Below are positions 2,842 through 21,918 of a DNA stretch of 61,213 bases, one piece after another. The notes under the pieces were generated by a model that saw only the letters and a list, made by a program, of their open reading frames with translations, searched no databases and was not told the origin of the DNA. Both the position numbers and the translations under genes were made by a program. The stretch covers positions 1 to 61,213 of the forward strand of contig PHCB01000015.1 of the NCBI GenBank assembly GCA_002842095.1, in the 5' to 3' direction. The DNA comes from a candidate division BRC1 bacterium HGW-BRC1-1. GTDB lineage: Bacteria; Sumerlaeota; Sumerlaeia; Sumerlaeales; Sumerlaeaceae. The first letter of the stretch is position 1. Every line of letters starts with the position of its first letter.

Positions 2842-3351
2842 ATGCATGAGAAAAGCGTCGAGCTGTTGAACAAGGCCGTGGCCGACGAGATGTCTGCCGT
2901 GCATCAGTACATGTACTTTCATTTCCATTGCGACGATCAGGGACTGGATCTGCTGGCGGGATTGTTCAAGCGGACCGCCATCGAGGAGATGATGCATGTG
3001 GAGATGCTCGCCGAGCGCATCCTGTTTCTGAAGGGCGATGTGGAAATGGTGTGTGCGTTGCCGGTGGAAAAGTTGACGGACGTAAAGGCGATGCTGGAGC
3101 TATCGGCCAGGCTGGAAAAAGAAAGCGCCTTAGACTATAATCGTTGGGCTAACGAGTGCGCAGCCAATGCGGATTCGGCCACGAAGAAGATTTTTGAGGA
3201 ACTCGTGCAGCAGGAAGAGCGCCACTTCGACCAGTATGACACCGAGTTGGAGCATCTCACCTCGCTGGGCACAAGCTACCTTGCTCTGCAGTCCATCGAG
3301 CGCAGCAAGCGCCAAGCGGCGGGTCCCGGCGGCGGCATGCCCCCGCACTGA
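2842..3351 (+). CDS. bfr: Bacterioferritin
   Basis: A 169-residue iron-storage/ferroxidase four-helix bundle protein of bacterioferritin length. The di-iron ligands known from E. coli Bfr are present at a constant offset of -2: E16, E49 and H52 (in 'IEEMMHVE'), E92, E125 and H128 (in 'QQEERHFD'), with Y23 near the site. M50 aligns with the haem-ligating Met52 of Bfr, so inter-subunit haem binding is likely. The frame is open further upstream, but I choose the ATG at 2842 because it has a good ribosome-binding site (CTGGAGG at 2827-2833, 8 nt spacing) and matches the family N-terminus (MHEKSVELLNKA). It is monocistronic, convergent with the sigma-factor gene and separated from it by a bidirectional terminator. 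Role: cytosolic iron storage and detoxification. Confidence 0.9.
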   Translation: MHEKSVELLNKAVADEMSAVHQYMYFHFHCDDQGLDLLAGLFKRTAIEEMMHVEMLAERILFLKGDVEMVCALPVEKLTDVKAMLELSARLEKESALDYNRWANECAANADSATKKIFEELVQQEERHFDQYDTELEHLTSLGTSYLALQSIERSKRQAAGPGGGMPPH

Positions 3352-3413
3352 TGGGGTGAGTCCGCAGCGGCCAGCTTGGCGGCAGCGGTGTGACAAAATG
3401 GATCATTTGGAAA

Positions 3414-3460
3414 CAAAAAAACTCCCCGCTGCCGGAGTCGGCGCGGGGAGTTGATTTTTG
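3414..3460. terminator. Bidirectional terminator between bfr and the sigma-factor gene
   Basis: ACTCCCCGC (3421-3429) pairs perfectly with GCGGGGAGT (3443-3451). An A-run precedes it (3415-3421, a T-run on the minus strand) and a T-rich tract follows (TTGATTTTT), so it can end both convergent transcripts. Confidence 0.85.
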
Positions 3461-15863: not shown

Positions 15864-16783
15864 CCGACGACGCCGATCTGAAACCGCGCGCCGACGAGGA
15901 TGAAGTGTTATCTGGTCAGTCCGATAAGTCTGTCCTGTCTGATCAGTCTGACTTTGTCGCTATGCCTGAGGACGGCTTGGGGCCGCCGCGCGGCGTGATG
16001 CGCGACCTGCGCATGTTGGACGGCGCGACGTTCGACGCCATCCTGCCGGGGCTCGACCCCGCCGAGGGTGCCATGATTACCGCGTGGCAGGCGGTGCGGG
16101 CCCCCGCCCACTCGCTGGCGCGGTTGCAAGGCGGCGTGATGGTGGTGGCGCCCGACTTCTTGAATTACGCGCGGCTGCTCAGCACCGGACAGGCCCGCGC
16201 GATGCTCGAGCTTCCCGGGCCGGGCTCGCTGGCGCGGGCGCTTGCCGCCGGTGTGAGGGCCGGGTTGGGTGTCATCACGCGTCCGCTGGCGCTGGCGCGA
16301 CAGGATTTCTGGACCGTTGCCGAGGTGCTGCTGCGTTACGATCTCGCGCTGCTGCCCGCGCATCTGGCGGGCGCGCCGCGGTTGCTGCACGCCAACCTGT
16401 CGGATTTCGCGTTTGCCTTCGAACGCCGCGATTTCGCACGACGCGCAACGTCGCTGCTGGGCGCGGGCGGCGGCGTCTTCACCCAGCAACCCGCCATGGC
16501 GGCATCGTGCCTGGCCCGCTGGGGCGTGGCCCCCGCCGTGATGGCGTTCCTCTGCCCGCCCGGCCACGACGACATGAACGACCTGCTGGCGGATATGTCC
16601 GCCGCGCAGGTTTTCGCGCGCACGCGTTTCGTGGCCGACGTCAGCAACCTCACGCCCGACCTGCAAAGCGTGGAGGAACTGGCCGAGCTGCTGCCCAAGG
16701 AAGTGGGCACGTTGCTCTTCGCGCCGCCGGTGGTGGCGGCCGTGGCGATGGAGTTCTCACCGGTGGACACAATCTCAGAATGA
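15860..16783 (+). CDS. Conserved-context protein of unknown function
   Basis: 307 residues from the ATG at 15860, which overlaps the preceding stop by 4 nt. No membrane segment or signal peptide. Most of it is an Ala/Leu/Arg-rich globular protein with 'GVMVVAPDFLNYARLL', 'FWTVAEVLLRYDLALLPAHL' and 'FVADVSNLTPDLQSVEEL'. I do not recognise the family. Near the N-terminus residues ~16-35 are encoded by a degenerate 9-bp-period DNA repeat (15907-15953), which looks inserted in frame. The stop overlaps the next start (ATGA). Context between a sugar-modifying fusion enzyme and a GT-C-like membrane protein suggests envelope glycan synthesis; this is inference. Confidence 0.7.
   Translation: MTDDADLKPRADEDEVLSGQSDKSVLSDQSDFVAMPEDGLGPPRGVMRDLRMLDGATFDAILPGLDPAEGAMITAWQAVRAPAHSLARLQGGVMVVAPDFLNYARLLSTGQARAMLELPGPGSLARALAAGVRAGLGVITRPLALARQDFWTVAEVLLRYDLALLPAHLAGAPRLLHANLSDFAFAFERRDFARRATSLLGAGGGVFTQQPAMAASCLARWGVAPAVMAFLCPPGHDDMNDLLADMSAAQVFARTRFVADVSNLTPDLQSVEELAELLPKEVGTLLFAPPVVAAVAMEFSPVDTISE
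15907..15953 (+). repeat. 9-bp-period repeat inside a coding sequence
   Basis: Reads as CAGTCCGAT-AAGTCTGTC, then CTGTCTGAT-CAGTCTGAC: four degenerate 9-bp units keeping the reading frame and encoding an S-D/Q-rich stretch. Confidence 0.6.
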
Positions 16784-18297
16784 TCGGCACGCCCGGGGGG
16801 GAAAACGCGAAGGCGACGGATCGGTTTCTGCGGTCGACAGCCGCGTGGGGCGTGGGCACGGCGGTGGCCGTGGCGGTGGTTACACTACTATTATACTGGC
16901 GCATGTTGCACACGTTTTTCTTCACCGACGATTTCGCCATGCTGGTCCTCACCGCGCCTCAAACCGGCAACGCCTGGTGGGATTGCTTCCGGCCGTACCC
17001 CATCGGGTTCTGGCGTCCGGCGGGGGGGCTGGTCTGCCATGCGGCGGCGTGGGCGGGCGGGCTTCATCCTCTCGCATTTCATATCGCCGAGCTTGCCCTG
17101 CATGGGGCGGTGGCGTGGCTCACCGGGCTGGTGGCGCTGCGCTGTTTCGGCATTTCGCGCTGGTGGGCCACGGCGGCGGCGCTCATGATGGCAGCCCACG
17201 TGGCGGCGTTTCGTGGCGCGGTGCAAATCTGCAACAGTCACGATGTCATCCTCGCGGTGGCGCTGCTGCTGGGGTTGCTGGGGTGGCATCGCGCGCTGGC
17301 GGCACCGCCCCCCGTGGGGCGCGGCGGATGGATTGCGCGCTTCGCCCTCACCGCGGCGGCCTTTGCGCTGGCCCTCATGAGTAAGGAAACCGGTGTGGTG
17401 TTTCCGGCGGTCATGGCAGCGTGGATGTTTGTGCCGGACGCGAATGCGCCAGCGTCGGACGCGCCGCGACCGCGCTGGCCGCACCGATTCTTCATCGCCG
17501 CCATGGTTGTGGTTGCGGTGGGTCATGCGGCAGGTTTGTTCTGGCTGCAATCCCACAGTCGCGGCTCTTACATCACCGAGGGATACCTGCAACTCTCGCC
17601 CGTGCGGCTGATCAGGTCGCTGGCCGACAACTCCCTCGGGCCGTTCTTTCCGTATTTCTTCCTCACCGAAACGCCCGCTGGCGGCGTGGCCTGGCCGGCG
17701 GGCGTGGTAAATGCGTGGCGGTTCATCATGTTGCTGGCCGGCGGCGCGGGTGCGGTGGCGCTGGTGCGCGGACGCAGCCCGGCGTGGCGTCGGGCGGGGT
17801 TTTGTGTGGTGGCCGTGTTTGTCATTATGGCGATACCCGCGCTGCAGAAAAGCCCGCCCACCGCCCGCGCGGTTTATAGCGCGCTACCCTTCGGGGTGCT
17901 CGCGCTGTGGAGCGCGGTGCGTGCCCTGCGCGGCGCGGCGCGCGGCTTGGCGGCAGCAGTTGTGGCCTTGCTGGCGGCGTCGTTTCTGGCAAGTTTCGCG
18001 TGGTCGCCCACGGTGGTGCAATGGCCCGAGAAAACCGCGCGCTACGAGCATTTCGTGCAAGAGATCGTGCGCGTCTCGCCCGACTGGCCCCGCGAGGGCG
18101 TGGTCGCGTTCTACAACCACCCCGCCGAAATGGGTGGCCCCACCGCCTCGTGGGCGTACCTGCAACACGCGCTCACGGTCTTCGTCCCCGGAAAGAAAAT
18201 CGTCCCGGCCCTGGACCACGTGCTGTCAGGCACAGTGAAAGTCTACCAGTGGACCCCGGACGAAACCCTGAGGGAAATGACGGGGTTCGAAAAGTAG
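16780..18297 (+). CDS. Polytopic membrane protein, GT-C glycosyltransferase-like
   Basis: 505 residues from the ATG at 16780, which overlaps the preceding stop (ATGA). The frame is open further upstream but runs over the previous gene. About 10-11 hydrophobic segments, starting at 'AVAVAVVTLLLYWRML'. After the first segment comes 'FFFTDDFAML', an acidic pair in the position of the GT-C catalytic motif, then 'FWRPAGGLVCHAAAW' and 'LHGAVAWLTGLVALRCF', typical of O-antigen/GT39-type enzymes. The C-terminal ~90 residues are soluble and end 'VKVYQWTPDETLREM'. It probably transfers a lipid-linked sugar made with the help of the two upstream genes. The fold class is likely; acceptor and donor are unknown. 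Confidence 0.7.
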   Translation: MIGTPGGENAKATDRFLRSTAAWGVGTAVAVAVVTLLLYWRMLHTFFFTDDFAMLVLTAPQTGNAWWDCFRPYPIGFWRPAGGLVCHAAAWAGGLHPLAFHIAELALHGAVAWLTGLVALRCFGISRWWATAAALMMAAHVAAFRGAVQICNSHDVILAVALLLGLLGWHRALAAPPPVGRGGWIARFALTAAAFALALMSKETGVVFPAVMAAWMFVPDANAPASDAPRPRWPHRFFIAAMVVVAVGHAAGLFWLQSHSRGSYITEGYLQLSPVRLIRSLADNSLGPFFPYFFLTETPAGGVAWPAGVVNAWRFIMLLAGGAGAVALVRGRSPAWRRAGFCVVAVFVIMAIPALQKSPPTARAVYSALPFGVLALWSAVRALRGAARGLAAAVVALLAASFLASFAWSPTVVQWPEKTARYEHFVQEIVRVSPDWPREGVVAFYNHPAEMGGPTASWAYLQHALTVFVPGKKIVPALDHVLSGTVKVYQWTPDETLREMTGFEK

Positions 18298-18329: not shown

Positions 18330-19355
18330 TTAGCGCGAGCTGCGGGATTTCTTTTTTGAACTTCGCTGGGCTACGCGGCGGTCGGATTTTTTGGTGTTGG
18401 CTTCGGCTTCGGTCATTACTTTTTCGATGGCTTTGTGCACCGCTTCGCCGAGGCCTTCCATGTTCTGGGCGGCCTGGGCCACGGCGCGTTCGGTGGCGGG
18501 ACGGGGGTCGGCCACGTTGGGCGCGGTGTTGATGCGCGGCACGCTGGCCTGAAGGCGTTGCTGGCGGACCAGCGCCGGAGGTGTCATCAGGTCGGTTTCA
18601 AACGCCGCGAAATGCTTGGGCAGGAAGTCATAGCGCAGCCAGGCCAGGTAGGCGCAGGCAACTTCCACGTTCTTTTCCGGGTTCCAGACGTCCTCGTGGT
18701 AGTTCCATTTGAGGTCGTAGCGTCCGCGAATCTCGCTCCACACCACGGGCATGACCTGCATCAGGCCCCGCGCACCGGCGGAAGACTTGCACCGGGGGCG
18801 GAAGTCGCTTTCGGTTTTCATGATGGCGCGGATAAGCTGCGGGTCGAGCCAATACTTGTTGGCGGCCTTCACAATATAAGCGTCGTAGGGGTTGTCGGAC
18901 AAGTCCTGCTGATAGTATTTCATCACGCGGGGGGTGTAATTGCGGGTCTCTTTATACGGGACCTTGCCCTTGTAGCGCAGCGTGGCGTAGGGTCCGGCGT
19001 TGTAGCTGGACATCCACAGACGGATGGCTTCGTGCGACAGCGGCTCGTTGGGCGACAGGGTGGCCTGCTCGCTGAGCGAGGTTTGCGACGCGGTGGAACT
19101 GACCATCGTCAGCACGGCGCCCGCCGTGGTGGCAGCGTCGCGGCTTAGTTCGCCGGCCATCTCGCTGGTTTTTTCAACGAGGGTGGAAAGGGCTTCCGGG
19201 GCCGCCGACAGTGTGGCGGAGATGCGCGCGCTGCGCATGGTGAGGCTTGAGGGCAATTTCGATGCAGACCCGGTGGGTGTCATTAACATGGCCGCTACTA
19301 CGAACAATATGAAGACGAAAGCGCCCGGGCGTCGCGAAATGAGCAATTGGCTCAA
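18330..19355 (-). CDS. Lytic transglycosylase (GH23) with circularly permuted domain
   Basis: 341 residues from a TTG start at 19355, chosen because AAGGAG (19363-19368) sits 7 nt upstream and the product begins with a signal or anchor segment (GAFVFILFVVAAML). The catalytic half is clear: 'LDPQLIRAIMKTESDF' (Glu182), 'SAGARGLMQVMP' (193-203) and 'NPEKNVEVACAYLAWL' (225-240). The motif that normally closes a GH23 domain, 'SYNAGPYATLRYKGKVPYKE' (117-136) with 'TRNYTPRVMKYY' (137-148), lies before the catalytic Glu instead of after it, so the domain order appears circularly permuted. A basic 'SSKKKSRSSR' tail ends the protein. Role: cleavage of peptidoglycan glycan strands. Family firm; activity not proven. 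Confidence 0.88.
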   Translation of the reverse strand: MSQLLISRRPGAFVFILFVVAAMLMTPTGSASKLPSSLTMRSARISATLSAAPEALSTLVEKTSEMAGELSRDAATTAGAVLTMVSSTASQTSLSEQATLSPNEPLSHEAIRLWMSSYNAGPYATLRYKGKVPYKETRNYTPRVMKYYQQDLSDNPYDAYIVKAANKYWLDPQLIRAIMKTESDFRPRCKSSAGARGLMQVMPVVWSEIRGRYDLKWNYHEDVWNPEKNVEVACAYLAWLRYDFLPKHFAAFETDLMTPPALVRQQRLQASVPRINTAPNVADPRPATERAVAQAAQNMEGLGEAVHKAIEKVMTEAEANTKKSDRRVAQRSSKKKSRSSR

Positions 19356-20010
19356 TCGTGTGCTCCTTAGTTTTAGGGGTGTTGGAAGGGCAGGAAGGGA
19401 AAACCGTCGCACGACCGCTGTTGTGCAGATTTTTGAAATGGTCGTCACCGGGGTCGATCTGTCTGGCATCCCATTTGCGGGTTTGCAGTGACCGGTGGTT
19501 GGGTGGTGCTTGGTTTGTGAAAGCATGAACAGGCGATGAGTACGCCCTTATTCTGGGCTCATTCAGGCTTGTGTGGATTGGGTTTTCATTAAGGCGGTCC
19601 AAAATGCGTCAATGGGGTAGCTTGACACGGGTGCATGCAGGAATCAATAATCAAGCATTTGGATTCAATTATCACGGCTTGGATCGGGTTGATCGTGAAA
19701 TCTTTGACCGACAAAGACTTCCTCAACCTTGTTGTCGATCAACAAAGTAGACGTTCCGCCCGCATCTGGACACTTTATGTTTGATCAAAATAGTCCGGTT
19801 TTCCTGCGCTTTTTTTCACGATTTTATCCAAGCAGGGGACATTTCTCTTTCCCCACGGAGGCTTTCAGGGGGCAACTGCTGTTCGTTTTCCGGTGGAAAA
19901 GCCTTTCATCTGGATGATGTTTCGCCCGTGACACTTGTTATATTGAGGGGGTTGGGTGGTAGCATGGTGGCGACAGGGTCACCGAGATTTTGATTTGTGA
20001 GGGCGAGACG
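19356..20010. other. Divergent intergenic region without genes
   Basis: About 655 nt between divergent genes, more AT-rich than the surroundings. A possible promoter is TTGACA at 19622-19627 with AATAAT at 19646-19651. T-rich stretches and a TATATT hexamer (19939-19944) lie nearer the plus-strand gene. No ORF with family signatures and no clear RNA structure was seen. Confidence 0.4.
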
Positions 20011-21051
20011 ATGATTCGGATTTCCGCTTTGCTGGGTCTGCTGTGTATGTTGGCGTGGGCACCTACGGGGGCGTGCGCGCAAGCGAAGGCATCCGTTTCG
20101 GAGCAGGGCGTCAGGGTCGAACTGATGTTGGATAAGTCGGAGATCGTGGTGGGGGAGCCGGTCAGTCTTATCGTTACGGTGGTGAACGATACGTCGCGCA
20201 GTCCGACGAGCAATTTCAGCGCGAAGTTTTTTTTCACCGAGGCCAACGGAGTTAAAGTGATGGTGTCGGCGCCGGGCGAGTTGCCGGTGCGTTACGAGGG
20301 GGCGGATCAACGCATCATGTATCCGTCGGTGGAGATCAACCTGCAGAAGGGCGAGTCGTGGCGCGAGATCCTGCCGCTGGTTTACGACAGTGGAGCGAAG
20401 GACGGATACCTCTTCAGCAAGCCGGGTCGTTATATTGTGTCGGCAGAGTTGACGGGCTCCATTCTTCGCGAGGCTACGCCGGCGGTGGTAACGCTGCCCC
20501 CCACAGCGGTAACGGTGAAGGCTGCGGAGGGCAATGCCGCGGCGGCTTTCAAGCTGCTGGCCAAGCCTGAAATGGCGAAGTCTTTGCAGAGGGGTATGGC
20601 AGAGAACGAGGCAATCGCAAATACGGCGCGCAAGGTGGCGTCGGATTTTCCGGACACGCCGTATTCGCCGTATGCGCTTTATCTGGCGGCCACGTGGAAT
20701 ATGCGCCCCCAGGCCCCCAACTACGAGCAGGCGGCTTCGGACTTCCGGGCCATGGTGGGCCGCTATCCGAATCACGTGATGGTTTCGCCGTCGGTGTTCA
20801 ACCTGGTGTTGTGCTCCATGGCGCTGAAGCAGCTGGATGTGGCGCGGGATTGGTTCTGGTATCTGCGCGATCTGGATCCGGCTTATGCGCTCATGCGGCG
20901 CGAGAATCCCACGGCGGCGTATTTCTATTTCGATCATGTTGAAACGGCCCAACAACGGCGCTGGTGGATGGTGGAGAAGCCCTGGGATGCCCCCGGGCCT
21001 GACACACCGCAGGCAAAGAAAGCGCAACCAATCAGCCCGGAGGAGCAGTAA
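20011..21051 (+). CDS. Exported protein with Ig-like N-domain and TPR-like C-region
   Basis: 346 residues from the ATG at 20011 (MIRISALLGLLCMLAWAP), which places a signal peptide ending near 'TGACAQA' at the start. Residues ~25-165 look like an Ig-like/CARDB beta-sandwich ('VRVELMLDKSEIVVGEPVSL', then 'SKPGRYIVSAELTG'). Residues ~185-320 are helical, with repeated Ala/Tyr/Pro patterns ('DFPDTPYSPYALYLAAT', 'DFRAMVGRYPNHVMVSP') as in TPR-like scaffolds. A Pro/Gln-rich tail follows. The stop is 4 nt before the folP GTG, so it is probably cotranscribed with folP. Function unknown; a periplasmic scaffold is plausible. Confidence 0.65.
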   Translation: MIRISALLGLLCMLAWAPTGACAQAKASVSEQGVRVELMLDKSEIVVGEPVSLIVTVVNDTSRSPTSNFSAKFFFTEANGVKVMVSAPGELPVRYEGADQRIMYPSVEINLQKGESWREILPLVYDSGAKDGYLFSKPGRYIVSAELTGSILREATPAVVTLPPTAVTVKAAEGNAAAAFKLLAKPEMAKSLQRGMAENEAIANTARKVASDFPDTPYSPYALYLAATWNMRPQAPNYEQAASDFRAMVGRYPNHVMVSPSVFNLVLCSMALKQLDVARDWFWYLRDLDPAYALMRRENPTAAYFYFDHVETAQQRRWWMVEKPWDAPGPDTPQAKKAQPISPEEQ

Positions 21052-21054
21052 AAC

Positions 21055-21918
21055 GTGGCGGTGTCATCGCAGATTTGGCGCGTGCGGGGTGGTCGCGAAC
21101 TCGACGCCGGAGAGCACACTATTATAATGGGTGTGCTGAACGTGACGCCGGATTCGTTTTCCGACGGCGGTGTGCATTTTGATGCGGCCAACGCCATCCG
21201 GTCAGGCGAAGAAATGGCAGCAGAGGGGGCGGACATTCTCGACATTGGCGGCGAGAGCTCCCGCCCGGGCCGGGCCGAGGAACTGACCGATGCGCAGGAG
21301 TGGGAGCGCATCGCGCCGGTGCTTATCGAGCTACGGCGACGCCTGCCCGGGGTGGTGTTGAGCGTGGACACCTATCGCGAGGAAACGGCGCGTCGGGCCC
21401 TGGCCGAGGGCGCCGATGTGATTAACGATATTTATGCGCTGCGCCGCTCGCCCGGTTTGGCGGCGGCAGTGGCCGAGGCGGGCGCAGGGCTGGTGCTCAT
21501 GCACATGCAGGGCGACCCGGCCACCATGCAGCAGGAGCCGCAGTATGGTGATCTGCTGGTGGAGGTGAAGGATTTCCTGCAGGAGCGAATGGATGTCGCC
21601 CGGGCGGCGGGGGTGGCGGAGGAAGCCATCGTGGTGGATCCGGGTATCGGGTTTGGGAAAACGTATCGTCACAATGTGCAGTTGTTGGCGGGGCTCGAGT
21701 ATTTGCGTTTGTTGCAGCGGCCGTTGGTGGTGGGAGCGAGCCGCAAGGCGTTTCTCGGGCATCTGACCGGAGTGAGCGACGCGGGGGATCGCGCCGAGGC
21801 CAGCCTCGCTGCGGCATGCGCGGCCGTGATGGCGGGAGCGTCGGTGGTGCGGGTGCACGATGTGAAAGCAACCAGGCGCGCGCTGGCCGTGATCGATGCC
21901 GTGCGGGCAGAGATGTAG
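21055..21918 (+). CDS. folP: Dihydropteroate synthase
   Basis: 287 residues, GTG start with GGAGGAG about 8 nt upstream, inside the end of the preceding gene. Catalyses condensation of p-aminobenzoate with 6-hydroxymethyl-dihydropterin diphosphate in folate synthesis; cytosolic TIM barrel. All family motifs are present: 'GVLNVTPDSFSDGG' (residues ~26-39), 'DIGGESSRPG', 'DPGIGFGKT', 'GASRKAFLG' and the C-terminal 'VVRVHDV'. Length is normal (~280). The usual neighbours (ftsH, or the diadenylate cyclase gene) are absent; it follows an exported protein gene and precedes a palindrome-rich intergenic stretch. Confidence 0.95.
   Translation: MAVSSQIWRVRGGRELDAGEHTIIMGVLNVTPDSFSDGGVHFDAANAIRSGEEMAAEGADILDIGGESSRPGRAEELTDAQEWERIAPVLIELRRRLPGVVLSVDTYREETARRALAEGADVINDIYALRRSPGLAAAVAEAGAGLVLMHMQGDPATMQQEPQYGDLLVEVKDFLQERMDVARAAGVAEEAIVVDPGIGFGKTYRHNVQLLAGLEYLRLLQRPLVVGASRKAFLGHLTGVSDAGDRAEASLAAACAAVMAGASVVRVHDVKATRRALAVIDAVRAEM

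Follow-up and report, generated by a model that had tools for sequence, protein, structure and literature searches.

Probable natural circular permutation of a GH23 lytic transglycosylase domain shared by Candidatus Sumerlaeota and a second phylum

The window, the whole stretch of 61,213 nucleotides analysed here, belongs to a draft genome of 3.77 Mb in 34 contigs (G000). Its minus strand carries an open reading frame at 18330-19355 that starts with TTG, stops with TAA and encodes 341 amino acids, numbered throughout with the TTG at 19355-19353 as residue 1. The coordinates, frame and motif positions reported for this gene in the first-pass annotation, which had proposed a circularly permuted lytic transglycosylase domain, are correct as judged from the open frame and its translation. 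The TTG start is supported by an upstream TAAGGAG with a 7-nt spacer, while an in-frame ATG at 19524-19526 is a formally possible alternative start. The protein is composed of a hydrophobic leader, a linker of about 75 residues, a domain spanning residues 108-245 and a tail with a basic end. The features are as follows:

18330..19355, minus strand: gene for the probable permuted GH23 lytic transglycosylase (open frame, translation, partial Pfam SLT match)
19363..19369, minus strand: ribosome binding site TAAGGAG, 7-nt spacer to the TTG (read in the sequence)
19260..19355, minus strand: putative signal peptide or membrane anchor at the N-terminus, MSQLLISRRPGAFVFILFVVAAMLMTPTGSAS (predicted from composition only)
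18903..19034, minus strand: N-block, residues 108-151, corresponding to the C-terminal end of canonical domains (YNAG ... ETxxY) and moved to the front (match to canonical GH23 profile columns 104-145)
18993..19004, minus strand: YNAG, residues 118-121 (invariant in 7/7 permuted proteins)
18936..18950, minus strand: ETRNY, residues 136-140 (E, T and Y invariant in 7/7)
18621..18899, minus strand: C-block, residues 153-245, corresponding to the N-terminal portion of canonical domains, which holds the catalytic Glu, and moved to the back (profile columns 6-110; MltC overlay)
18810..18812, minus strand: codon of catalytic Glu182 (Glu182-Ser183 invariant in 7/7)
18756..18767, minus strand: GLMQ, residues 197-200 (translation; G, L and Q invariant in 7/7)
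18636..18650, minus strand: YLAWL, residues 236-240 (translation, AlphaFold2 model, alignment of the seven)
18333..18608, minus strand: C-terminal tail, residues 250-341, with the basic end KKSDRRVAQRSSKKKSRSSR (read in the translation)

The neighbours of the transglycosylase gene, both on the plus strand and both without a Pfam match, encode a many-helix membrane protein (16780-18297) and a 353-aa protein (19990-21051); a folP-type pterin-binding enzyme (21055-21918) directly follows the latter. A promoter-like site on the plus strand at 19622-19651, matching 11 of 12 positions (TTGACA, 18 nt, AATAAT), is directed away from the transglycosylase gene.

The canonical order of motifs in GH23 domains is Glu-Ser, GLMQ, YLxxL, YNAG and ETxxY. 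In the window protein, YNAG and ETxxY are found upstream of Glu182, and YLAWL forms the last helix of the domain, adjoining its new C-terminus. As had been claimed from the sequence, no second YNAG block occurs between the C-block and the stop codon, and a canonical copy hidden downstream, a possibility the first-pass annotation had raised against its own reading, was looked for and is not there. The Pfam SLT match (PF01464; 6.5e-21, 74.5 bits against a cut-off of 21.3) stops at positions 2-83 of the 117-position model because the remainder of the domain sits upstream; Pfam and NCBIfam both report a truncated domain for this protein.

The block order was examined with a canonical GH23 profile, which was derived from 32 unpermuted proteins, mostly of other bacterial genomes, and is 147 columns long. 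Within the window domain, the N-block matches columns 104-145 (32.6 bits) and the C-block columns 6-110 (97.7 bits), an out-of-order match that confirms the motif order first read from the sequence (YNAG and ETRNY before Glu182, GLMQ and YLAWL). Scored alone, the N-block reaches 36.5 bits over columns 104-145, compared to a maximum of 9.4 bits in 16,000 shuffles of eight tested N-blocks; the rotated order is therefore far beyond chance. When the domain was written twice in tandem, a single unbroken canonical match was obtained (columns 7-145, 128.9 bits), and both the two-piece match and the doubled-copy result were reproduced with six other complete-domain proteins. Canonical relatives found with the window protein (e.g. 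in G043, G053, G054 and G055) contain both blocks in the opposite order. Finally, the permuted-family profile as written aligned to the best lytic transglycosylases in the PDB only at positions 50-144, and the de-permuted profile was co-linear with LtgA and Slt70 at 4-138, through YNAG and ETxxYV.

We propose, with a probability of about 0.87, that this gene encodes an exported GH23/SLT peptidoglycan lytic transglycosylase whose catalytic domain is naturally circularly permuted, activity and export being predicted from sequence. The original suggestion that a GH23 domain had been cut between YLxWL and YNAG and its old ends joined, with relocation of its termini, is thus backed by the profile results as well as by the tree and structure tests described below.

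A contig scan with the single window protein recovered no relatives, while a scan with an alignment recovered them. Homologues with the same order comprise six further proteins in two phyla: four from Candidatus Sumerlaeota (two copies in G010 and one each in G014 and G039) and one in each of the two sampled genomes of another phylum (G304 and G167; 2/2). In total, seven permuted proteins with a complete domain come from six separately assembled genomes; all family members are from draft genomes, and the named ones are metagenome-assembled. In a sample of 386 genomes, the seven score 209-266 bits over nearly the entire permuted-family profile; the best canonical match scores 78.5 bits, and canonical matches mostly cover positions ~45-142. 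No further members were detected in the class and phylum samples around G050 (30 genomes) and G062 (3 genomes), nor in a second relatives sample around G304, which, to judge from its listed entries, largely overlapped the first. Weak long matches in G306, G310, G198 and G227 had the canonical order on reading.

Searches of phages and plasmids (tblastn) and of viral contigs (scan) for permuted members yielded only canonical orders where checked; H1, in which 92% of the query was covered, and L046-L048 were canonical when read. Foldseek, run against predicted structures of viral proteins, returned no full-length match, the best TMq among the matches listed being 0.54. One viral contig, L046, encodes at ~2900-3420 a small canonical-order transglycosylase that has the signature IVVGCLYLKWL in common with the permuted family; its C-block is 46% identical to that family, and it falls outside the permuted group in the tree. 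The two copies within G010 (L037 and L038) have diverged from each other. SLT matches at E 0.001 are absent from 35 of 40 sampled Sumerlaeota genomes; the enzyme class seems to be scarce there.

The residues expected for catalysis are conserved. E83-S84 (domain numbering), GLxQ, YNAG and E-T-x-x-Y are invariant in all seven permuted proteins, at identities of 31-48%. Glu182 would serve as the acid/base, cutting the MurNAc-GlcNAc bond and giving 1,6-anhydro-MurNAc ends as canonical enzymes do. The invariant Tyr of ETxxY is presumably the counterpart of Tyr192 of E. coli MltE, the alignments here ending before that residue. In MltE, the catalytic Glu64 together with Ser73, Ser75 and Tyr192 has been taken as the active-site layer around the cleaved MurNAc (PMC5841429). 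The permuted gene provides the only SLT-family match in G000, a genome that also carries one MltG-type YceG gene and one 3D-domain gene.

A degenerate copy with the permuted order and the same N-terminal and TPR layout was found in G022 (L006, 592-2064, plus strand). It has Arg at the position of the catalytic Glu and YLLD where YNAG is expected, and to judge from these replacements it is probably an inactive version; activity need not extend to every family member. Since non-catalytic versions exist, the window protein might likewise be a permuted but non-catalytic scaffold that retains the fold and binds peptidoglycan. However, Glu-Ser and the other three motifs are kept without exception in the other seven proteins, and a catalytic Glu would be superfluous in a scaffold, making this reading very unlikely.

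The 156-residue domain, modelled with AlphaFold2 from five sequences, is predicted to fold as one compact unit (pLDDT 92.5, pTM 0.88), with the N-block mostly at pLDDT 91-95. Given this pTM, the N-block, which makes up about one third of the chain, is likely to be confidently placed; the prediction does not separate it from the rest of the domain. A block that failed to pack into the fold was the outcome that the first-pass annotation had named as fatal to its proposal. The C-block displays the lysozyme-like helical fold: model residues 54-146 superimpose on residues 186-282 of E. coli MltC (Z 12.6, rmsd 1.5 Å over 92 residues), and residues 55-147 superimpose on Slt70 (Z 12.3, 1.9 Å over 93 residues), both overlays being sequential in chain order and covering the C-block half, with the N-block outside them. 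Goose-type lysozyme, MltF and Slt35, considered as a better home for the domain, are lower-scoring matches within the same superfamily. A full-length model of L038 (AlphaFold2, three rows) has a pTM of 0.43, at which the domain outline is usable and the packing is not; it consists of a signal helix, a five-strand beta element, TPR helices, a loose linker and the catalytic domain.

In the arrangement we propose, the new chain ends would sit in the turn linking the YLxWL and YNAG helices, and the former ends (one past ETxxYVxxV, the other ahead of the first helix) would be bridged by the short linker of ~10 residues between the N-block and the C-block. The YNAG/ETxxY block would then fold back against the catalytic half of its own chain, in cis, completing the usual groove. 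Alternatively, the N-block could complete the active site of an adjacent molecule, giving a domain-swapped oligomer whose activity depends on assembly. The shortness of the inter-block linker is in keeping with such an exchange, new chain ends can favour swapping, and a monomer-only prediction is compatible with it; yet the single chain folds at pTM 0.88 and there is no sign of oligomers, so that swapping appears very unlikely.

The same order of blocks could in principle be left behind by a tandem SLT array, of which the end of an upstream domain and the truncated start of a downstream one persist without forming a functional domain. The block order fits, and an intermediate of duplication and deletion would look alike. 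Against this, seven proteins in two phyla carry a single N-block and a single C-block, the motifs of both being invariant, the relatives stop shortly past the C-block, and both blocks are predicted as one confident fold; we regard a remnant as highly improbable. A sequencing, assembly or frameshift artefact masking a canonical order, for which the draft state of G000 in 34 contigs might be invoked, is ruled out: the identical order recurs in seven proteins, and the six genomes that encode them were assembled separately.

In a tree of the seven permuted domains, re-ordered for the purpose, and 32 canonical ones, the permuted domains form one group (support 98/95), and a single change suffices in 98% of bootstrap trees. 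This supported grouping indicates one old permutation event as the simplest reading of the sequences. Tandem duplication followed by deletion is the usual route to a permuted arrangement; here, a canonical gene was probably duplicated in tandem and the outer parts then lost. None of the members found has YNAG blocks on both sides, as an intermediate of this route would. Both Candidatus Sumerlaeota and a second phylum would subsequently have retained the permuted form.

Most relatives begin with a signal peptide, after which come a small beta-barrel, TPR helices and finally the permuted domain, and the beta-element and TPR layout is common to both phyla. The window copy differs in having a short leader and linker in place of the beta-barrel and TPR helices, and in its C-terminal tail, which is missing from the relatives, all of these terminating shortly past the domain. 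The hslV gene lies tail to tail with the permuted transglycosylase gene in G304 (L052), G167 (L053) and G022 (L006), in two phyla. dnaA is close to the permuted gene in G304 and within ~5 kb of it in G010 (L038). The shared beta-element and TPR layout and the hslV neighbour in G022, G167 and G304 favour a vertical history across the two phyla, although the gene may have been transferred horizontally between them.

The permutation could itself matter for function. The YNAG/ETxxY block comes first after the tether (the signal sequence, or the beta-barrel and TPR helices), so that a wall of the groove would be joined directly to the tether as a gate absent from canonical enzymes; tension or partner binding transmitted via the tether could then open or close the active-site groove. 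We consider such a role for the permutation unlikely.

If the circularly permuted transglycosylase is as proposed, the family marks a natural position at which the GH23 fold accepts new termini and provides a template from which permuted lysozyme-like domains could be engineered. The truncated Pfam and NCBIfam match to the permuted domain exposes a blind spot, and, as the sole SLT-type match in G000, the gene would offer a simple case for the cellular role of one such enzyme. GH23 is a very large group of cell-wall enzymes, with >100,000 proteins by the figure cited in PMC8943055. No description of a permuted GH23 domain was found in the open-access literature, subscription papers and preprints being outside the scope of the search.

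Both blocks of the window domain are homologous to the canonical GH23/SLT enzymes (E. coli MltC, Slt70 and MltE; Neisseria LtgA) and contain the same four motifs. In the canonical enzymes, however, the YNAG-ETxxY segment follows the catalytic Glu block, whereas in the window protein it precedes it, and the window family has its termini between the YLxxL helix and the YNAG helix. Natural circular permutation is also known in the NlpC/P60 peptidases (the YaeF/G6R and LRAT-like families; cited in PMC6403190), whose superfamily likewise includes cell-wall enzymes, but these are papain-like peptidases of unrelated fold and chemistry. Natural permutation of the lysozyme fold itself is already known, and the closest precedent is the phage Enc34 endolysin (PHA02564 family), a peptidoglycan hydrolase of the lysozyme superfamily in which the core helices are permuted and the catalytic Glu is in place (PMC8943055). 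In Enc34 the catalytic helix comes after the other core helices, and sequence similarity to GH23 is not recognisable (PMC8943055); in the window family, the last helices have moved to the front, the catalytic helix has the YNAG block before it and the GLMQ and YLxWL helices after it, and GH23 similarity is clear, the cut points being compared from the text of that paper. A permutant inside recognisable GH23 and kept across two phyla therefore appears to be new.
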